Source of the DNA: an uncultured Clostridia bacterium
GTDB taxonomy: Bacteria; Bacillota; Clostridia; Christensenellales; Borkfalkiaceae
DNA length: 62,865 nt
Direction: 5' to 3'
Assembly: GCA_947630705.1 (NCBI GenBank)
Contig: CANRIK010000008.1
Span: 1-62,865 of the forward strand
Part shown: one piece after another, positions 22,506 to 33,017 of the stretch
Layout: each line of letters starts with the position of its first letter
How positions within the stretch are numbered: position 1 is the stretch's first letter
Program-made: the position numbers and the translations under genes
The notes under the pieces: model-generated
What the model was told of the DNA's origin: nothing
What the model saw: the letters and a program-made list of their open reading frames with translations, nothing else
Databases searched by the model: none

Positions 22506-22702
22506 AACTCAACACGTTCTCAAAATAAAAAACTCAACACGTTCTCACAATTTACCGTGGATTCACCCCTAACGGGGGATTCCCCTCGCTGTCTTTTTAA
22601 CGTGGATTCACCCCTAACGAAAGTTCACCCCTCGCTGTCTTTATAACGGGAGTTCACCTCTAACGTGGATTCACCCCTAACGAAAGTTCACTCCTCTCTG
22701 TC
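22506..22702. repeat. degenerate tandem repeats derived from the DUF368 gene end
   Basis: Two copies of CTCAACACGTTCTCA (near 22508 and 22533) are followed by about three units of ~46 bp built around GGATTCACCCCTAACG and CCCTCGCTGTCTTT. The last unit overlaps the 3' end of the minus-strand DUF368 gene: its final codons and stop (AAAGACAGAGAGGAGTGA on the minus strand) recur in altered form beyond the gene. Confidence 0.75.
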
Positions 22703-23566
22703 TTTGATTTTTTTACTCATATACGCCGTAAGCGCATAGGTCAGAACGGCGCCCAAGACGCACAGCGCACAGCCGAGGCCTATTTGAAGTCCGTCGAGAG
22801 GAGCCGAGGCGTAGTCGAATACAATGAACACTGCCGGAATACTCCCCAGCACAAAGCCTACAATCGCCCAATGTGTGCCGCGCGGAAACCTTTTGAGAAA
22901 GTATTTCATAAGTTTGGCAATACTGAAAAACCCCAGCACGAGCCCGAAAGCGAAAATCACGAGCACGAGCGCGGAATGCCAGAAGTCCGAAAGCAGTAAT
23001 TTTATCGTCTCGAATATCGAATCGTAATATCCGAAAATCATTAACAGCATGCTTCCGCTCACCCCCGGGACCACGAGTGCGCAACTCGCCAGCATGGCCA
23101 CCGCAAACAGCGCGAAATATCCCCACAGCGGCATAGCCGCCGACAAATCTGCCGAACCGGCGGAAATATATAGCTTTGAAACGCATATCCCTATTATTAA
23201 AATAAACGGAACTATGACCGAAACAACGTTCAATTTATCGAATCCGTAAGTCCTGCTCTCCGAAAACAGCTTCGGAAGGGAGCCTATCATAAGCCCGACG
23301 AACAGCAGAACGGTGGGAAGCGGAGCATATATCAGCGCATAATAGAGCGGAAAATACATTGCCGCAAACGCAAGGACCGCGCCCAAAAGTATGGGAATCA
23401 AAAAGAGTATGTTCTCTTTGAAATTTTTCCGCAGACTACCGAGGGCGTCTATAAGTTTGTCGTAGATATCCAAAAGCACGGCGATTGTGCCTCCGCTCAC
23501 GCCCGGGATAATCATTGCCACGCCTATTGCGGCGCCGTATAAAATGTTTCTGAAAAAGTTCTTCAT
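22688..23566 (-). CDS. DUF368 polyprenyl-phosphate transporter family
   Basis: 292 residues, about eight to nine membrane helices. The family signature GVAMIIPGVSGGTIAVLL opens the protein and is echoed by ALVVPGVSGSMLLMIFGYYD, the internal repeat expected of the family. Members (PopT) have been reported to flip undecaprenyl phosphate back across the membrane for cell-wall synthesis; assignment here rests on family membership. No Shine-Dalgarno is present. Its promoter puts the start point about 5 nt before the ATG, so the mRNA is probably leaderless. Its 3' end is repeated downstream. Confidence 0.9.
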   Translation of the reverse strand: MKNFFRNILYGAAIGVAMIIPGVSGGTIAVLLDIYDKLIDALGSLRKNFKENILFLIPILLGAVLAFAAMYFPLYYALIYAPLPTVLLFVGLMIGSLPKLFSESRTYGFDKLNVVSVIVPFILIIGICVSKLYISAGSADLSAAMPLWGYFALFAVAMLASCALVVPGVSGSMLLMIFGYYDSIFETIKLLLSDFWHSALVLVIFAFGLVLGFFSIAKLMKYFLKRFPRGTHWAIVGFVLGSIPAVFIVFDYASAPLDGLQIGLGCALCVLGAVLTYALTAYMSKKIKDREE

Positions 23567-23997: not shown

Positions 23998-24660
23998 ATG
24001 TTTAAATTCGATTTGCTCGCAAATAAAACCGCCGACGCAGACAGCCTTGCCGAATACGGCTTTTGCGAGGCGGACGGAATTTTCGTCTATTCTGCGCCCA
24101 TTTTGGACGGGCAGTTTAAAATGACCGTCCTTTCCGACGGAAAAAATATAACGGGAACACGGGTTTTCGACAACGCCTCGGAAGAGGAATACACCCTGCA
24201 CCTTGTGGATGGCGCGGTCGGCGAATTTGTCGGCGAGGTTCGCGCCGAGTACGTCAAAGTTCTGTCCGATATTGCCGAAAAATGCTTTACTCCCGATATT
24301 TTTGCCGATTGCGCAAGGCGTGTGGCCGAGTACGCCCTTGAAAAATACGGCGACAGGTTGGAGTATCTCTGGGAAAAACTGCCCGACGCCGCCGTGCTCC
24401 GTCGCAAGGACACGGGCAAATGGTACGCCGTGTTTATGAGAATCAAAAGGAGCCGCCTCGGTTTGGAGGGCGAAGATTCGGCAGACATTATCGACGTGCG
24501 TTGCGAGCCGTCAAAGCTCCCCCTTAAAATCGACGGAGCGAGCCGCTTTTCGGGATATCACATGAATAAGAAACATTGGCTTACATTGCTTTTGGACGGC
24601 TCCGTGCCGTTCGAAGAACTCGCCGAAAGCCTCGATTACAGCTATTCTGCGGCAAAATGA
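23998..24660 (+). CDS. MmcQ/YjbR-family protein with N-terminal extension
   Basis: 220 residues. The C-terminal ~120 match the MmcQ/YjbR (DUF419) fold, once likened to DNA-binding proteins: LEYLWEKLPDAAVLRRKDTG, WYAVFMRI, DVRCEPS, and HMNKKHWLTLLLDG. The N-terminal ~95 residues form an extra beta-rich domain seen in many Clostridia versions. Function is unknown. The ribosome-binding site is the last copy of a 15-bp repeat. A short copy of its coding sequence (about 24522-24556) recurs at 34088-34124. Confidence 0.85.
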   Translation: MFKFDLLANKTADADSLAEYGFCEADGIFVYSAPILDGQFKMTVLSDGKNITGTRVFDNASEEEYTLHLVDGAVGEFVGEVRAEYVKVLSDIAEKCFTPDIFADCARRVAEYALEKYGDRLEYLWEKLPDAAVLRRKDTGKWYAVFMRIKRSRLGLEGEDSADIIDVRCEPSKLPLKIDGASRFSGYHMNKKHWLTLLLDGSVPFEELAESLDYSYSAAK

Positions 24661-24663
24661 ATC

Positions 24664-24704
24664 AAACAGCCGGACGGAACGCCCTTCCGTCCGGCTGTTT
24701 TAAA
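24664..24704 (+). terminator. hairpin terminator of the MmcQ gene
   Basis: AAACAGCCGGACGGAA (24664-24679), CGCCC loop, TTCCGTCCGGCTGTTT (24685-24700). Confidence 0.88.
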
Positions 24705-24723: not shown

Positions 24724-24756
24724 AAGCGCGCCCGATTATTTCAATCGGGCGCGCTT
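24724..24756. terminator. second GC-rich hairpin
   Basis: AAGCGCGCCCGATT, five-base loop, AATCGGGCGCGCTT. Lies 24 bases after the first terminator. Confidence 0.75.
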
Positions 24757-24865
24757 CATATTATTTGAATATTATCCGTATATTATCTAATATCTGAATT
24801 ATCCAAATATTTTCTGGTTTCTTGATTATTCGGCTCCGTATCGTTTTATATTTCATAAGTCAAAT

Positions 24866-24907
24866 GCGCCGCCGCAGGCAGTTCCGCCTGCGGCGGCGCG
24901 GACTTTT
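24866..24907. terminator. third GC-rich hairpin
   Basis: GCGCCGCCGCAGGC (24866-24879), AGTTCC loop, GCCTGCGGCGGCGC (24886-24899), then GGACTTTTCT. Insulates the RNA promoter at 24955. Confidence 0.75.
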
Positions 24908-24954
24908 CTCTTACGAATGTTTATCGGTAATTCAATGAAAATTTCGCACGGGTA

Positions 24955-24994
24955 TTGACAATTCTTTTCAAAAGTGGTATTCTTGTGATACCAC
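24955..24994 (+). promoter_or_regulatory. promoter with dyad, for the structured RNA
   Basis: TTGACA (24955-24960), 17-bp spacer, TATTCT (24978-24983). GTGGTAT (24974-24980) and ATACCAC (24988-24994) form a perfect 7-bp dyad over the -10 and the predicted start point, a possible operator. Confidence 0.75.
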
Positions 24995-25262
24995 ATGTTT
25001 ACATTTTAATATAGGAGCGGTATTTTTATACCCTTTTCAAGTCTCGGCGTGGCTTGCAATCGGGTATTTTTATGCCTTTTTTTCGGCATAAGTCAACAAC
25101 TCAATAATGCGGAATAGGAGCAAAAAGAGTTTGGCATAGAGTATCTCTTAGTTCTTATTTCGTCATAAAAAGTTGTTGACGCTCTGAAAATGTAAACGGT
25201 GTGGTAGCCTTTGAGAGATACTATGCGGCGTGTTTCTTAAAGGAACACGCCTTATTTTTTTA
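24990..25262 (+). ncRNA. structured RNA with pseudoknot and intrinsic terminator, family not identified
   Basis: Transcription should start near 24990. An outer stem pairs 24989-25007 with 25187-25206, about 19 pairs. Inside it AGTCAACAACT (25091-25101) pairs with AGTTGTTGAC (25171-25180). A third helix pairs GCATAG-AG-TATCTCT (25134-25148) with AGAGATACTATGC (25214-25226), crossing the first two to make a pseudoknot. Small hairpins lie at 25019-25032 (GGTAT/ATACC), 25039-25055 and 25072-25089. The third helix abuts a terminator (25227-25251, then TTATTTTTTT). All helices can coexist, so a free-standing ~270-nt RNA is more likely than a switch. RaiA-type RNA is the alternative I would test first; I cannot match it by eye. 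Confidence 0.7.
25227..25260 (+). terminator. intrinsic terminator of the structured RNA
   Basis: GGCGTGTT (25227-25234) pairs with AACACGCC (25244-25251), followed by TTATTTTTTT. It lies 21 bases before the start codon of the giant surface-protein gene, which must rely on readthrough or an unseen promoter. Confidence 0.8.
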
Positions 25263-25280
25263 TTTAAAAGGGGAAAATTG

Positions 25281-28200
25281 ATGCAAAATTCTAAACATAA
25301 GATAAATAGGTCGTCGCTTGCGGCGATTATATTGTGCCTTGCCGTTTTTATAGCGGCAATTTTTTCGTTGATTCCATTAAAAGGCACAACCGCCGAGGCG
25401 TATGAATCAAAACCGTCGCCCACCGTTACTTTGAATTATAAATACGAGCATTTTGATAAAGATTCTGTTGAAGATTTATATCATTCATTGTTTGGCCCCG
25501 GGACTGACTATGCCCAAATTGTCAATATGGCCAAAGGCACTACTTATAATACATTTAAAGAACTGAACTGTTTAACTGGCGAAATAGTTATTTCTTTGGG
25601 CGGATATACTTGGACGCCGGTTTTTTTATCGAAAGACGATAGCGGCAACCCTATTTTGACTTTGATGCAGAATTATCAGGAGGACTCTGCTTTATTAAAT
25701 TGTGATTATACCAAGCACGCTGATTGGGATACAAGTTTTGATTATCCGTCGCCAATTTACGGAACAAGTTATGCGCGGTCGGTGCTTGTCGGTTCACAAT
25801 ACGGATATACAGGTTATACGCCTAGAGATGGTGCACAAAACGCCGGTTATAAAAAATTTATTGAAACTTTTGACAGCTTTATTCAAAAGCCGCTTTACGT
25901 GCCTTGGCAAGCGACACACGAAGTTTATTCCCTTCAAGGTCGTAATGACGGGCATCATTTAAATGAATTTTTTGATGATGATTCAGTATATGCAAGTTTA
26001 ACAGATTACACTAGTAAGTACGGTTATTCTTCTTGGCAAGATGATAAGCTATGGCTTCCGAGTACCGAAGAATTTTGCGATACTTATAGTGTTTGGGATA
26101 ATAATTGGTTTAATGTCATGTTGAACAGAAAAATACTTACAAGAACTTGTAATGCGGATGAAATCTGTATGGGTTATTGTAATGCTAGGGATAAGGAATA
26201 TGGTATAGATACTGATTGGTTAACGTTTGACGAAGAAAATCTTCCTTGTGGATTAATATTGCCCTGCTTCCATTTAAGTCTTAAAGCAGTAGAGGACAAT
26301 GCGAAATATTTTGTTCCCGAGCCGGTTTATACGGGAAATGCAACGAAGGTAGTAGATTATAACGGTCTAGAACAGTCGGTAACTACAACGTTAAACCAGC
26401 ACGTTCAATTTTCAAGTATTACCAGCGGCGCTACTTACAGTACAAGCGGTAATGATATAACCCTTACAGCAACCAACGTTTACAAGAAGTCGTCAAGCAG
26501 TGATATTAATGATAAATATATTATAAGCGTCAGGTGCAAACCCGATGCAATGTGGGACACGACCCATGACTCTGACGGGCCGCGTACCGCGTGTGTTTTG
26601 AAAATCAACACTATACCGATAACGGCTGTAAAGGTTACAGGTGCGACCGCAGAAGCAAAGACGTATGACGGCAAAACGGACGGAATAACGCTCACAAACA
26701 TAAAAGCAACGCTTACGGGAGCGGTAGACACCGACACTTCTTCAAACAGTCCAAAGGTATATATAGCAAGCTGTACGGCTACGCTGACGAGTGCTAACGC
26801 CGGCACTACCAAGTTGAATTTAACCAAATTTAAGTTGGGCGGAGACGCCGCCAACAACTACACGCTTGCGGACACGATAAAGCAAGATAATTATACCCAC
26901 AGTTCCTCGCTTGTAAACCCCAAAGAGATTTCGATTTCGGGCGGAATTTCTTCGAGCGGAAGCAAAGTTTACGACGCTACAACTTCCACCTCGGGTATAT
27001 CTATCGATACAAGCAAAGTGACGTTCAAGGGTGTGGTTGACAACGCGCATAACGGCAAGATAGGTATTTCCCATAATTCCGCCGTGTTCACTTCCGCAGA
27101 CGCTTCTTCCAAACAAATCAGACTGTCCGGAATCAGACTGACGGGCAACGGCGGCGACAGCACAATTTATAAGAACTATAAATTAAGGGATAACTATACC
27201 TATACGTTTTCGGACAACGGCACGATAACCAAGAGACCGTTAAAAGTCGTTTTTGAAAAGAACGAAAGCTCGCCTTATATCTGGGGCGACGACGGCGGAA
27301 CTCCTACTTTGCAGTATATAGGCAGGCATCCGCAGATAAGTGCGGCGAACAGCAGTTCCGGCTCTAACGACGCAATACATTTCAAGGTTGATACGACGGG
27401 CATTTCGGGCGATTTGCTCACTGCCGTACAGGCCGTCACTTTGGAAAGGGACGGAACTTGCAGTCAGGAGTATTCGGCAGGCACAAGCCACACGGTGACA
27501 ATTAAATTATCCGCGCTGACCGCCGACAACTTCACCTTGACCGATAACACGTTCAGCTACAAGATAATCAAGCGCGAGGCTTCGGTCAAGATAGGGAATA
27601 AGAGCTTTACTTACGGCACGAGCCGCACGAGCGAAAAAATCGAAGTTTCGGGCGTCATATCGGGTCAGACGGGCTTCGTCACTTCCGAAGGCAACGGCGG
27701 AGTCGGTTCGGACAGCAATTTGCTTAAAGCGTACGTATTGCACGGCACGGGCTATAACAATGTGGGATATTATCCCATAGTTCCCGAATTCACCAATACG
27801 GATATAGGCAAAAACTATAATTTGACCGTGACGGGCGATTTCGGCAAAAACGGACATACCAACGAGACGTATAAGCAATATTATGAGAAAGCCGGCGAAT
27901 ACTCCCTTACTAACGCGACTATCGAGGGCACGGGCGGCAACGACCACGGGAACAGACAGATAGATCAGGACGTATTCACCGTAACGCACTTTTACGACCA
28001 TGCAAGTCAGTTCTCCCGTACCGCAACGGCAGCTTGGTTCAGTTTGAAGGGCGGAATGGTTCCCACCATAAAATACAGCGAGACGAAGCTCGACGCGAGC
28101 GCCGTCGGCTGGCAGGAGAGCATAGGCGATTTAAGCGAATACGAGATGGGTAAAACCTATACCTATTATATACTCGTAACCGCGGCCAACCACGATTCGA

Positions 28201-31200
28201 GAGTATTTACGGTAAATATAAGTTTCAAGCAGGAGCAAATCACCATAACTTTCGACGCGGACGGAATCACGGCGACTTACGGCGACGCTCTGCCCGATCA
28301 GGATACTCTGTGGAGCAAAGTGACGGCGATAGAGGGCCTGCACAAGGACGATCAGGCAATAGAAGATCTCGACGAGGCAAAGGCGGCTTTAAAAGCGTTT
28401 GCCGAGCTCTCGCTGCGCGACGACAGGAGCGGCGCGTTAACCGCGGCGACCGCGGTGCATAAGACCGAGGGCGGATACAGGATTGCTCTTGTATTCAAAA
28501 GCGTAGGCGGAGAGGGCGAAACCACCTATCACGTCGTATATGCAAACGAGCAAAACTTCTACAAGGTAAATTTAAAGCAGATAACCGAAAGCGATATCGA
28601 TTGGCACGTATCTGACTATGTTTACGGCGAGGAGGTTGACGATTCCGCGGCTCACGAAGCGCATCACCCCAAGCCCGTACTCAAAGACAGCTTTTTGGCA
28701 GAGGCGGACAAGGCAAACGCCGAAAATAAGAAGTTGAGTTTTAAAATCTACCGTGCAACAACAAACTATGAATTGACGGGCGAGCATGCGCACCTTGCCG
28801 GCGAGTATTACGTTAAAATTACGGGCATTGCCGAAGATTTTGAAAATAAATATCAGCTTGCTCCCGAAACAGAGTTCAAAAAGAACTTTACCATAAGTTC
28901 GAGAGCCGTGGAAGTTAAAATCAACAGTCTGCCCGATCAGGAATGGGGCGACAACGCGCAATTAACCGCCGAAAACATTGCTTCATATCTTGCGCGCCAG
29001 ATAACAGACCTCTATACGGTAACCTCCGGAACTAAAATATTAAGTGACGACGCCTCAAACGCCTTTACTTTAAAACTCGTCAAAGAGAGCGCGGAGAGCG
29101 AGGCTCTTTCCGGTCTGCTCAATGCCGGCAAATATAAGATAGTTGGCGAGGCGACCAAAAACGAATTGGGCGTAAGCAACTATGATATAACTTTCACCGA
29201 CGGCAGTTTCGAGATAACCAAAAGAGATATCACTTTCACATTGAAATCCGACAACGGCGACTATAAGGGCGAAGAATTTGACGATATCGACGTTGATTTT
29301 GACGATTTAAAGAGCGGAAGTCTGACGAAAGAAACCGATTATAAGCTGACGTTCAGCCCCGACGGCTCTTCCGGCAATGCCGGAGTGCTCGGCGATAACA
29401 GCAAGCCCAAAGGCGCCGGACAATATACCGTTACGGTGACTTTGCAGAATACCGCGGCGGCAGGCAACTATAATATAACCACCGAATCCGCGACGTTCAC
29501 GGTCAACAAGGCGGATATAACGTTTACTCTGCAAAAGTCCGCTAACGCCTATACGGGTTTGGGGCAGGAAGTTGACGTTACGTTTGATACCGTTAAGAAA
29601 GGCGACAGCTACACGAAAGGCAACGGCTATACGCTGTCCATTGAAACTTCGGACGGCGACCTTGAAGGCGGTTTGCCCAAGACGGTCGGAACTTATACGG
29701 TCAAAGTTGTGTTGAGCGGCGATTTTGCAAAGAACTACAACGTAACTACGGCTTCGCGGGAGTATGAAATCACCAAAGCTCCCTTGACGTTTAAAGACGG
29801 CTCGGCGGCGTATAACGGAGCGGAGCATCAGAATGTTGAGGTGGAATTCGAGGGCTTGCAGAACGAAGAAACGTTGGAAGCCGGCGACTACACCGTTACT
29901 TTTGAAAAGATAGGAGTTGAACTTTCAAACGGATACCCCAAAGACGTGGGCACATATACGATGAAAGTTGAGCTCAACGATAATGCAAGGACGAAAAACT
30001 ATAATATTACTACCGAATCGTCAACCTTTACCGTAACCGACGGGTTGATTGCAAGGCCCACGGGCAGCGATATAACGGAATCCGAATACAGCGGATTGGC
30101 GCAGAAGATAACGCTTGACAGCTTCAATAAAGACCAGATGAGCGGTTCGGCTTCACAGGGCGCGACGTTTGACGAGACTACGGGCGAGTTTTCCGCAACC
30201 GATGTGGGTACGTACACTCTTACCGTAACTCCCAAAACGGGCTACAAATGGACGGACGGGAACACCGAAGAGGTCACATTCTCCATTGAAATAAAAGAGG
30301 CCGATCTTACCTTTACCATGGAGTCCGCCTCCGGCGCATATGCAGGCAAGGGTCAAGACTATTTGGACGTCGTATTTGTCGGGCTCAAAAACGGTCAGAC
30401 GCTTGTAAAGGATACGGACTATACGCTGTCGTTTGAGACTTCAAACGGCTCGCTTGACGGCAATTTGCCCAAAAACGTGGGTAATTATACCGTAAAAGTG
30501 CATTTAAAGCCGGAGAGCAGTCTTGCCAAAAACTATAAAATAACCACCGAATCGCAGACATACGAGGTAACGCAAGCCGAACTTACTTTCCAGAACGGCT
30601 CGGGCTCGTACACGGGCGAAGAACACCAAAATGTGACGGTTGTGTTTGTGGGACTTCAAAACGGCGAGACGCTCGAACTCACCACGGACTACACGGTAAC
30701 TTTTGAAAAGATAGACGTGGATCTTTCAAACGGCCATCCCAAAGAGTTGGGCGTGTACACGATGAGAGTCGAGCTCGTTTCAAATGATACTACCAAAAAC
30801 TATAAGATTAAGGATAGTTTCACTGGCACATACACAGTAGCCGACGGCACGGTGGATAAGCCCCAAGGCAGCCCCGTCGTAGGCGAATACAAGGGTGAGA
30901 ATTACGAGCTTACGGTGTCAGGCTACGATGACGGCAAGATGAGCTATACAATATCGCCTTCCGACAAGGGCGCGGCGTTTGACGCAAGCAGCGGCAAGTT
31001 CACGGCGAAGGACGCGAACACCTACACGCTCACCATAACGCCGAAGGCCGGCTACAAGTGGACGGATGGCGGCTCCGACGGCGTAGAGTTCAAAATAACC
31101 ATAAACAAAAAGCAGTTGACGATAACAGCCAACGCCAACTCCATAACCTACGGCTCGGCGGCATCGGCTAACGGCGTTGAGTACGAGGGATTTGTCGGCA

Positions 31201-33017
31201 GTGAAAGCCAAAGCAACCTTTCGGGCGCGCTCGACTATGACTTTGACTACACGCAGGGCGGCGCGGTCGGTTCGAGCTATAACATAACGCCCAAGGGCTA
31301 TACTTCGGACAACTACGAAATACATTACGTGTCAGGCACGCTGACGGTAAACGCCAAGCCTATAAGCCTAACCATAGCCGACGGCGGACACGCATACGGC
31401 GAACAGCCGCAGACCGTGTTTACCGTAAAGCCGAGCAGTGACTTCTACACGGGCGACAGCGTGCAATCGCTGGGAGCGATCGTATATGAAGTCCGCAAAA
31501 GCGGAGTGAAGATTGAGTTAAGCGCAGAAACTCCCGTAGGCGAATATGAAATCTGGGCCGAAAATAAAGTTTACGGCAACTATGACGTCACGTTTACGGC
31601 AGGGAAATACGTCGTTTCCGCAGGCGAAGTTACTCCGCCCACAGAGGACACGCGCGAGTTTATCTACACGGGCGAAGAGATAACTTATATGCCCGAGGGC
31701 TTCGACGGCGGCACGATGAAATTTTCGGACAACTGCAACGTAAAAACCGAAGCGGGCACTTACACCGTGCGCGTGGAGCTCAAAGACGAAAATATGACCT
31801 TCAAAGGTTTGGAACAGAAATGGATCGAGTTTGAGTTCGTAATCAACGCGGCGCAGATAGTCAAGCTGAATGATAACGGCAACGTGTTCATGCACGATGA
31901 ATTTGCCGGAGGAACGGGCAATCAGGCCGTAATGCTCGCGGAAAAGGACGAGGACGGCAAGTTTAAGAACTTCGGCGCCGTCGGCGGGCAAGGTATGACA
32001 ATATGGGCAACGCGGCCTTTGGCGTACACGGGCTCGAACAATGAAATTAAACCAGCAAAACCCGAATTCGGCTCTGCTCTCGAAGATACATACATAAATA
32101 TAACCGATTTGGATATTTCGGATATAAACTATCCGATAGCGGTAGATTTGCGCACTGTGGGCAAGTATGTGGTTTACTATCACATAGTTGCGGACAACCA
32201 CGAGGTGTTGGAAGGCGAGTGGCGCGTAGCCGTGCAAAAGGACTCCGAAGTTACAAAAATAATCTTCAAAAAAGCTGTTACGATTAAATACGGCGACGTT
32301 CCCACTACCGACGAGCTGTTTGATTTGCTCAAAGATTCGCACGGCGAGTATCTGTCGATAACCCGTAACGGCGAGGACGTTTCCGAAGACTTCTTCAATG
32401 AGGCGACGGGCGTAACGTACGGATTGTGGCGTAAAAATCAGTTCGGAAAATACTATGACTGCGGCGAGTACTACATTAACTTTGTACTGCCCGACGACTC
32501 TTCGCGCACGGTCATCTACCGCGAAGGCGGCAATGATTCGTCAAAAGACACAAACCGCGATAAACTTGTTGTCGAGCAACTTCCGCTCTCGCTCACTTGG
32601 GACACCTCAAAATTGAAGTATACATACATTGGCGAGCCGATAAATCTTGAAAATCTTGCCGCCGTAGACCTTACGGGTATGGCGGACGATTGGAAAGACA
32701 TACAGGTGCGCTTCGAGCTTGCCGACACCCACGGACAAGTGATAACCGCGCCGGGCGAGTATGAGGTGGTTGCCATATTAGAGGGCACAAACGCAAAGAA
32801 CTACTGCTTTGCCGAGGACGCTAAAACTACCAACACCGTGGTTGTTACCGAACAGAATCACTCGTCGGGCGATGACTCCGGCAACCCCGACAAATCCGAC
32901 AACCCTACGGGTACTTTCGAAGGTATGGAAATATCTCCCTTCGTGATTACGCTCGGAATCGAAGGCGTCACTATAATAGTTCTTGCTATTGTTTTGGCAG
33001 TGATTAAAAAGAGGTAA
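25281..33017 (+). CDS. giant MBG-repeat surface protein, membrane anchored
   Basis: 2,578 residues. Signal peptide with hydrophobic core around residues 11-32. Residues ~60-360 resemble a DUF6273-type domain (KLWLPSTEEFCDTYSVW and GLILPCFHLSLKA). Then about 2,000 residues of MBG/YDG-like beta domains, marked by AKTYDGKTDGI, LTITANANSITYGSAA and many VGTYTVKV strands. A two-domain-plus-linker module is duplicated at ~1410-1673 and ~1674-1943. The C-terminus has a Ser/Asp/Pro linker, one helix and KKR, and no LPXTG, so it stays in the membrane. Probably adhesion or surface structure. AAGGGG precedes ATG 25281; the longer frame to 25230 runs through the terminator. The first ~1.2 kb is more AT-rich than the rest. 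Confidence 0.88.
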   Translation: MQNSKHKINRSSLAAIILCLAVFIAAIFSLIPLKGTTAEAYESKPSPTVTLNYKYEHFDKDSVEDLYHSLFGPGTDYAQIVNMAKGTTYNTFKELNCLTGEIVISLGGYTWTPVFLSKDDSGNPILTLMQNYQEDSALLNCDYTKHADWDTSFDYPSPIYGTSYARSVLVGSQYGYTGYTPRDGAQNAGYKKFIETFDSFIQKPLYVPWQATHEVYSLQGRNDGHHLNEFFDDDSVYASLTDYTSKYGYSSWQDDKLWLPSTEEFCDTYSVWDNNWFNVMLNRKILTRTCNADEICMGYCNARDKEYGIDTDWLTFDEENLPCGLILPCFHLSLKAVEDNAKYFVPEPVYTGNATKVVDYNGLEQSVTTTLNQHVQFSSITSGATYSTSGNDITLTATNVYKKSSSSDINDKYIISVRCKPDAMWDTTHDSDGPRTACVLKINTIPITAVKVTGATAEAKTYDGKTDGITLTNIKATLTGAVDTDTSSNSPKVYIASCTATLTSANAGTTKLNLTKFKLGGDAANNYTLADTIKQDNYTHSSSLVNPKEISISGGISSSGSKVYDATTSTSGISIDTSKVTFKGVVDNAHNGKIGISHNSAVFTSADASSKQIRLSGIRLTGNGGDSTIYKNYKLRDNYTYTFSDNGTITKRPLKVVFEKNESSPYIWGDDGGTPTLQYIGRHPQISAANSSSGSNDAIHFKVDTTGISGDLLTAVQAVTLERDGTCSQEYSAGTSHTVTIKLSALTADNFTLTDNTFSYKIIKREASVKIGNKSFTYGTSRTSEKIEVSGVISGQTGFVTSEGNGGVGSDSNLLKAYVLHGTGYNNVGYYPIVPEFTNTDIGKNYNLTVTGDFGKNGHTNETYKQYYEKAGEYSLTNATIEGTGGNDHGNRQIDQDVFTVTHFYDHASQFSRTATAAWFSLKGGMVPTIKYSETKLDASAVGWQESIGDLSEYEMGKTYTYYILVTAANHDSRVFTVNISFKQEQITITFDADGITATYGDALPDQDTLWSKVTAIEGLHKDDQAIEDLDEAKAALKAFAELSLRDDRSGALTAATAVHKTEGGYRIALVFKSVGGEGETTYHVVYANEQNFYKVNLKQITESDIDWHVSDYVYGEEVDDSAAHEAHHPKPVLKDSFLAEADKANAENKKLSFKIYRATTNYELTGEHAHLAGEYYVKITGIAEDFENKYQLAPETEFKKNFTISSRAVEVKINSLPDQEWGDNAQLTAENIASYLARQITDLYTVTSGTKILSDDASNAFTLKLVKESAESEALSGLLNAGKYKIVGEATKNELGVSNYDITFTDGSFEITKRDITFTLKSDNGDYKGEEFDDIDVDFDDLKSGSLTKETDYKLTFSPDGSSGNAGVLGDNSKPKGAGQYTVTVTLQNTAAAGNYNITTESATFTVNKADITFTLQKSANAYTGLGQEVDVTFDTVKKGDSYTKGNGYTLSIETSDGDLEGGLPKTVGTYTVKVVLSGDFAKNYNVTTASREYEITKAPLTFKDGSAAYNGAEHQNVEVEFEGLQNEETLEAGDYTVTFEKIGVELSNGYPKDVGTYTMKVELNDNARTKNYNITTESSTFTVTDGLIARPTGSDITESEYSGLAQKITLDSFNKDQMSGSASQGATFDETTGEFSATDVGTYTLTVTPKTGYKWTDGNTEEVTFSIEIKEADLTFTMESASGAYAGKGQDYLDVVFVGLKNGQTLVKDTDYTLSFETSNGSLDGNLPKNVGNYTVKVHLKPESSLAKNYKITTESQTYEVTQAELTFQNGSGSYTGEEHQNVTVVFVGLQNGETLELTTDYTVTFEKIDVDLSNGHPKELGVYTMRVELVSNDTTKNYKIKDSFTGTYTVADGTVDKPQGSPVVGEYKGENYELTVSGYDDGKMSYTISPSDKGAAFDASSGKFTAKDANTYTLTITPKAGYKWTDGGSDGVEFKITINKKQLTITANANSITYGSAASANGVEYEGFVGSESQSNLSGALDYDFDYTQGGAVGSSYNITPKGYTSDNYEIHYVSGTLTVNAKPISLTIADGGHAYGEQPQTVFTVKPSSDFYTGDSVQSLGAIVYEVRKSGVKIELSAETPVGEYEIWAENKVYGNYDVTFTAGKYVVSAGEVTPPTEDTREFIYTGEEITYMPEGFDGGTMKFSDNCNVKTEAGTYTVRVELKDENMTFKGLEQKWIEFEFVINAAQIVKLNDNGNVFMHDEFAGGTGNQAVMLAEKDEDGKFKNFGAVGGQGMTIWATRPLAYTGSNNEIKPAKPEFGSALEDTYINITDLDISDINYPIAVDLRTVGKYVVYYHIVADNHEVLEGEWRVAVQKDSEVTKIIFKKAVTIKYGDVPTTDELFDLLKDSHGEYLSITRNGEDVSEDFFNEATGVTYGLWRKNQFGKYYDCGEYYINFVLPDDSSRTVIYREGGNDSSKDTNRDKLVVEQLPLSLTWDTSKLKYTYIGEPINLENLAAVDLTGMADDWKDIQVRFELADTHGQVITAPGEYEVVAILEGTNAKNYCFAEDAKTTNTVVVTEQNHSSGDDSGNPDKSDNPTGTFEGMEISPFVITLGIEGVTIIVLAIVLAVIKKR

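Follow-up and report, generated by a model that had tools for sequence, protein, structure and literature searches.

A candidate attenuator-type RNA family of uncultured Clostridia, with a competing antiterminator, upstream of genes that mostly encode exported or membrane proteins

Transcription-attenuating riboswitches act through a terminator/antiterminator expression platform, and T-box leaders also use a terminator/antiterminator switch. c-di-GMP riboswitches control surface proteins in some Firmicutes, and Rfam holds families for both the T-box and the c-di-GMP riboswitches. An excerpt from one paper places a c-di-GMP riboswitch upstream of the surface protein gene cbpA (PMC7423583), and an excerpt from another includes Bacillota among the bacteria in which raiA RNA occurs (PMC11706538). 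In open-licence papers, judged by title and abstract opening, no description of the RNA reported here was found.

The window, i.e. the whole stretch of DNA analysed here, comprises 62,865 nucleotides of an uncultured Clostridia bacterium (contig CANRIK010000008.1). Judged from its sequence, 24989–25261 is very probably the 5′ leader of the mRNA of a giant surface protein, acting as a transcription attenuator and belonging to a new RNA family. On the forward strand, it is preceded by a promoter at 24955–24983 (TTGACA-N17-TATTCT, with an extended −10, TG before the second hexamer), and the 5′ strand of a long stem (P1; 24989–25007, predicted to pair with 25187–25206) begins at about the expected transcription start. 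Inside it lies P2, a stem of 10 bp (25092–25101 with 25171–25180). The conserved apical segment GGCA..GTATCTCT (25133–25148) holds the 5′ strand of a predicted pseudoknot, whose 3′ strand is AGAGATAC followed by TATGC (25214–25226). This crossing helix joins 25134–25138 and 25141–25148 with 25214–25221 and 25222–25226, and consists of 13 pairs with a 2-nt bulge. An intrinsic terminator hairpin of 11 pairs with the loop TAA (25227–25251) follows, and the U-tract TTATTTTTTT (25252–25261) lies directly 3′ of it. Direct reading then gives a ribosome-binding site, AAAGGGGA (25267–25274), and the gene at 25281–33017, whose product of 2578 aa has an N-terminal hydrophobic segment and MBG_2 domains (PF18676, 9.4e-21); this gene is most likely the target of the leader. 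Three GC-rich hairpins lie to the left of the element (24664–24700, 24724–24756, and 24865–24900). The genes on that side encode an undecaprenyl-phosphate translocase-like protein (22688–23566, reverse strand; PF04018) and a YjbR protein (23998–24660, forward strand; PF04237).

An earlier, sequence-only reading of this DNA had described a near-consensus promoter, the long stem, the inner stem, the crossing helix, the terminator, and the three hairpins. The promoter and the terminator were borne out by reading and pattern scan, the helices by reading and, for P1 and P2, by folding, and the GC-rich hairpins by pattern scan, all at the positions given above; the U-tract was also seen in both direct reading and the pattern scan. 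The minimum free energy of 24987–25262 was −100.3 kcal/mol, compared with −59.7 (SD 4.5) in dinucleotide shuffles (z −9.1), and none of 200 shuffles was as low as the native sequence. Together with the compensatory changes in relatives described below, this indicates that the pseudoknotted RNA proposed there, equipped with a promoter and a terminator of its own, is real and conserved.

One helix had been overlooked. The linker and the pseudoknot 3′ strand are complementary to the terminator 5′ arm and loop: CCUUUGAGAGAUA (25208–25220) can form 13 contiguous pairs (−15.3 kcal/mol) with UGUUUCUUAAAGG (25231–25243), which comprises the terminator 5′ arm, the loop, and the first bases of the 3′ arm. 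By position, this antiterminator would exclude both the pseudoknot and the terminator. The earlier reading had argued from helices that do not exclude each other to a free-standing ncRNA of ~270 nt; since the antiterminator had been missed, that premise fails for the full set of helices. A conserved antiterminator competing with the pseudoknot and the terminator points instead to a cis-acting transcription attenuator, and the element is most likely not a free-standing ncRNA.

The genome of origin carries five distinct copies according to nucleotide search and the covariance model R1: the window copy on contig C8, those on C7 (60739–61039), C6, and C18, and a more diverged one at C3:127314–127463. 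A sixth row, on C2, is identical to the C7 copy in sequence and neighbouring ORFs (L002 and L004, at the end of C7 and the start of C2 of G000). The two are probably a single locus that was assembled twice, hence the count of five. Each copy precedes a different gene, encoding the MBG giant, a BspA-type LRR lipoprotein, a zinc-ribbon protein, and two lipoproteins. Pattern scanning of the contigs of named genomes gave 111 stretches, and loci found by searching whole genomes were added to these. From 125 distinct loose pattern stretches, we kept 65 full elements (64 with all three marks, and L033), dropping L034, L039, and L071, which are cut at contig ends, and 57 others without the marks. The kept elements on named contigs were all in Clostridia bacterium MAGs, many of them from the Lapin series. 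R1 was built from 24 of the 65, and a second model, R2, was built from diverged members, 25 in number. R1 fits the window copy, which is of the long type, poorly (42.8 bits, the match beginning only at 25142), and this copy is not among the R2 matches listed for the genus.

Within the genus, R1 matched 49 of 93 genomes at E ≤ 0.01 and R2 matched 58 of 93, the weakest R2 rows in this count being taken on score alone. The hand-counted union of both models was 60 of 93; G011 and G455 rest only on elements that were set aside (L245 and L243), and the figure used is therefore 58. At E ≤ 0.001, R2 matched 72 of 396 genomes sampled from the order, and these matches spanned 27 of 142 genera (at E ≤ 1e-4, 66 of 396 by hand count); at E ≤ 1e-4, it gave no match in 397 genomes from elsewhere in the phylum, of which 14 belong to the same class. 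Both searches used stricter filters, with which some weak matches are lost. An exact-pattern search found only 5 of the 396 genomes, all of the own genus, and the R2 matches across the order led us to reject restriction of the element to that genus. The 1.6-Mb genome G458 has up to 13 model rows, two of which overlap on opposite strands. The loci read outside the genus numbered 15 and 40, with L282 and L305 being the same place in both sets and L301 and L304 having the same sequence. After reading, L237, L242–L245, and L268 (not full members, or a shifted match) and L220 (a long A type) were left out of the diverged (B) set.

The class has the following layout: promoter, P1, an AAUAA-like bulge, P2 with optional side hairpins, the apical part, a U-rich stretch, the 3′ strands of P2 and P1, the linker, the pseudoknot 3′ strand GAGAUAC then UGC, the terminator, and in most copies a ribosome-binding site and gene. 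P1 begins UACCACAU.. in A-type copies and has different sequences in others. The apical part bears GGCA and GUAUCUC and, in compact copies, a P3 hairpin; the conserved core is compact, about 130 nt, and is joined to the expression platform. Three of 116 elements had too little DNA upstream to be examined for a promoter; in 108 of the other 113, there are exactly 5 nt between the end of the best −10 hexamer and the element, and the hexamer score was at least 9 of 12 in 105 of 113, compared with 7 of 113 for shuffled upstream DNA. ORFs start at a median of 30 nt after the terminator, and within 60 nt in 91 of the 105 elements with an ORF. A palindrome-like stretch of the type CACAATATATTGTGGTT was seen upstream of the promoter in L019, L020, L033, L035, and L040. 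Related-looking leaders with the same UACCACAUU start and promoter occur at L242:194–324, L243:206–338, and L244:202–336, and loosely in L245. No pseudoknot or antiterminator of the usual kind was seen in these leaders; instead, the P1 3′ GGUGUG could itself pair with CACACC before a U-tract, and the group is perhaps a sister class with opposite logic.

Compensatory changes in homologs, whose absence the sequence-only reading had named beforehand as one refuting outcome, were found in the helices: as far as alignments can tell, the outer stem, inner stem, pseudoknot, terminator, and antiterminator all co-vary. In alignment A3 (the 24 shortest of the 65 kept elements, A type), P1 and the pseudoknot were paired in 98.7% of 527 cells. 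Double-changed cells numbered 45, compared with 14.5 in shuffles (0 of 500 shuffles reached this), and all were in P1; counted by pairs, however, double changes occurred in 4, no more than in shuffles (3.7). The pseudoknot pairs in A3 were 100% formed with one-sided changes only, and four to five pairs of the terminator stem changed on both sides. Alignment A5 comprises 25 diverged elements hand-picked among those read by then; L217, L234–L236, L239, L241, L246, L208, L201, and L202, among others, were omitted for lengths or gaps that fit badly. Here, 97.0% of 600 cells were paired, and double changes occurred in 11 of 24 pairs, compared with 6.4 in shuffles (0 of 500) and 1–5 in slid controls. 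These pairs lay in P1 (8 of 13) and the main pseudoknot helix (3 of 8), the latter being paired in 99% of cells, and the GCA/UGC pairing was formed in 25 of 25 elements. Further pair types in A5 were not above shuffles (174 of 500). Across 99 distinct elements, P2 scored −14.98 natively and −6.57 with permuted partners (0 of 5000; 94 of 99 beat the row median), and the pseudoknot duplex was stronger than with shuffled interiors in 109 of 114.

The linker and the terminator loop change together in relatives, e.g. CCUUUUAGAGA with UCUUUAAAAGG in L122, CAAACGGAGA with UCUUCGUUUG in L214, and CAAAUUCGGGA with UUCCGAAUUUG in L281. For 34 distinct A-type combinations, the native antiterminator scored −12.79 and the permuted partner −11.16 (0 of 5000). 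For 92 distinct elements, the values were −19.0 and −13.06 (SD 0.34; 0 of 5000), and the native antiterminator beat the row median in 90; this set derives from 116 elements (117 minus L210), with L201 and L202 put aside for having fewer than 9 of 12 P1 pairs and identical pairs merged. The effect was present in the A type alone (44 distinct; −19.68 vs −17.46) and in the diverged B type (48 distinct; −18.37 vs −13.08). Since permutation ignores relatedness, shared descent, in which linker and loop are inherited together, adds to the effect in all the permutation comparisons. The 40 loci outside the genus were found by R2, a model with base pairs in P1 and the terminator but nowhere else, and they therefore provide a check on loci that were not chosen for the antiterminator, with the caveat that R2 still scores the sequence of all columns. 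There, the native score was −18.05 and the permuted −10.66 (0 of 5000), and 40 of 40 beat the row median; L301 and L304 in this set are identical, and L305 is L282 of the 92-element test. By column counts in A5, 6 of 13 antiterminator pairs were double-changed, compared with 1.3 in shuffles (0 of 500); in A3 alone, the column-based test was no better than shuffles. Predicted energies averaged −16.4 kcal/mol for the antiterminator and −16.1 kcal/mol for the terminator hairpin in 65 elements, and −16.9 and −17.1 kcal/mol, respectively, in 51 elements, and such near-equality is what a switch needs. By eye, GGUGUG of the P1 3′ strand could also pair with CACACC of the terminator, a candidate extension of the antiterminator.

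An ORF preceded by a ribosome-binding site was found within 300 nt of 105 of the 117 elements, and 12 had none. We assigned the 105 targets by simple rules of our own, not by a signal-peptide program, to lipoprotein-like proteins (68), proteins with an N-terminal signal or membrane segment (24), zinc-ribbon proteins (5), and others (8). By these rules, 92 of 105 targets are exported or membrane-bound, compared with 104 of 282 background ORFs (42 lipoprotein-like, 62 signal/membrane, 5 zinc-ribbon, and 173 other), the background being ORFs with 150 aa or more from these loci and from the window, targets included. The link to the downstream MBG protein, which had been put forward as an inference, is supported by the copies and these counts. 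Pfam searches covered 97 of the 105 products, which were truncated at 430 aa, and gave 26 with BspA-type LRR_5, 9 with DUF6273, 7 with a zinc ribbon, and 6 with the Listeria-Bacteroides repeat, besides others. Outside the genus, the 40 loci had 13 lipoproteins, 8 signal/membrane proteins, 1 zinc-ribbon protein, 12 others, and 6 without a product; counted among the others are an SPFH/zinc-ribbon protein, a DUF4236 protein, an LRR protein, a phosphotransferase-like protein, and a weak GIY-YIG match. At one of these loci (L292:352–1302), the element stands before a phosphotransferase/fructosamine-kinase-like, non-exported protein, a possible clue to the signal. A target starting LY.LRAGLS.IS recurs behind elements in more than one genus (L015, L215, L309, and L319), with no Pfam match in L015, L309, and L319. 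In L017, L029, L042, and other downstream ORFs, different mature proteins follow signal peptides that closely resemble each other (MKKKLLILLLTVVAALC..), and the leader and signal-peptide start seem to have been copied together before different proteins.

The best reading of the element is an orphan riboswitch-like attenuator with the pseudoknot as the OFF and the antiterminator as the ON state. A promoter, an intrinsic terminator, and a same-strand downstream gene are present, as in attenuators generally; an antiterminator predicted to exclude the terminator appears conserved in every test except that on A3 columns, and a covarying, putative sensor domain is joined to the expression platform, as in riboswitches. 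Transcription would start with the first bases of P1, after which this stem, P2, and the apical part would fold, and the apical GGCA..GUAUCUCU would pair with AGAGAUAC..UGC just downstream of P1. As long as this pseudoknot held, the antitermination strand would be hidden, the terminator would form, and the gene would be off; a short terminated transcript of the size first proposed (~270 nt) would still be made. With the pseudoknot absent or broken, CCUUUGAGAGAUA would pair with UGUUUCUUAAAGG as the arm and loop of the terminator emerge, terminator formation would be blocked, and polymerase would read on. A cellular signal acting on the P1/P2/apical domain would tip the balance between the two states, and a single switch of this kind may be common to a set of mostly exported and membrane proteins.

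As to the trigger, a small-molecule or second-messenger ligand is somewhat more likely than an RNA-binding protein. That the element is a riboswitch proper, with one such signal for all copies, has in our judgement an even chance of being correct; the compact core of about 130 nt with its expression platform and the multiple copies in small genomes, up to 13 rows in G458, fit this reading. The ligand is unlikely to be c-di-GMP, since three genomes that carry elements (G002, G006, and G010, drafts that are 93–95% complete) gave no GGDEF match. A doubtful but plausible variant is the same attenuator with an RNA-binding protein holding or melting the apical segment or P1. P1 and P2 vary greatly in length and can accommodate large side hairpins, the constant parts in the A type are the P1 base and the apical GGCA..GUAUCUC segment, and the targets are a surface-protein set rather than one metabolic pathway, all of which suit a protein; against it, the core keeps unpaired stretches (AAUAA-like after P1 and U-rich after the pseudoknot strand), as in an aptamer.

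The own promoter and terminator and the large structured domain would also suit a free-standing structured ncRNA of ~270 nt lying beside the downstream gene by chance. Such an RNA would show no structural coupling to that gene, and here the predicted antiterminator and the gene spacing, with starts at a median of 30 nt downstream, provide one; the excess of exported or membrane-bound products over the background speaks further against this explanation, which we consider improbable. Still less credible, to the point of being hardly tenable, is mobile or repeated DNA (MITE-like, integron-like, or a recombination site) that merely resembles an RNA. Several copies per genome and the seeming joint copying of leader and signal-peptide start are what such DNA would show, but the copies are very diverged yet structurally compensated, and they keep the promoter and mostly a gene in the same orientation. 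Searches of phage and plasmid collections gave no match to the window copy, and none of 8 pattern matches in viral contigs carried the other marks. Returning to the attenuator, we give somewhat less than even credence to a broader proposal, that of an order-wide multi-copy riboswitch class sensing one global, probably envelope- or signalling-related molecule and co-regulating a surface-protein regulon in uncultured Clostridia. Its regulon would include BspA-type LRR lipoproteins, MBG and Ig-like giants, and SPFH/zinc-ribbon membrane proteins, and the class would do for the cell surface, at the level of RNA, what a sigma factor or two-component system does; its signal might even be one new to biology.

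The elements represent a new and widespread class of attenuator-type RNA, with several copies per genome in many uncultured Clostridia. This gives a well-supported structured RNA class absent from Rfam 15, with an alignment and expression platform ready for a ligand search, and short transcripts made in vitro would allow direct tests for the signal, with no need to culture the organism. The class would also show that these uncultured Clostridia use one RNA switch to control a set of exported and membrane proteins.

Searches of the whole window with Rfam at the gathering score gave only a tRNA, and those of 24850–25320 at E ≤ 10 only low-scoring rows around hairpins, with no raiA row; at E ≤ 1, searches of 20 loci that hold diverged members yielded a tRNA and some weak rows unrelated to the element. 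The window element thus had no Rfam match, which agrees with a new family, one of two possibilities raised by the sequence-only reading. The other, a diverged raiA-type RNA, was dropped, as a search of the own genome with the RF03072 model at E ≤ 10 found nothing. raiA motif RNA resembles the element in being a structured bacterial RNA of ~200 nt (209 positions in the RF03072 model), and differs in that the RNA in the window carries a competing antiterminator. T-box leaders share the terminator/antiterminator switch, and a short look-alike, GUGGUAACCG, stands beside P1 in A-type copies; however, it is not kept in diverged copies, the targets are mostly surface proteins, and no T-box row appeared in the Rfam searches of the window, 24850–25320, or the 20 loci. 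c-di-GMP riboswitches are similar as leaders before surface-protein genes, and were rejected on the lack of such a row in these Rfam searches and on the element-bearing genomes without a GGDEF match. The closest likeness in architecture is to attenuating riboswitches, with which the element has in common the position in a 5′ leader, an upstream fold that would serve as sensor, and a strand common to sensor, antiterminator, and terminator. In contrast to them, it matched no Rfam family in these searches, and its shared strand is the 3′ strand of a predicted pseudoknot with the apical segment.
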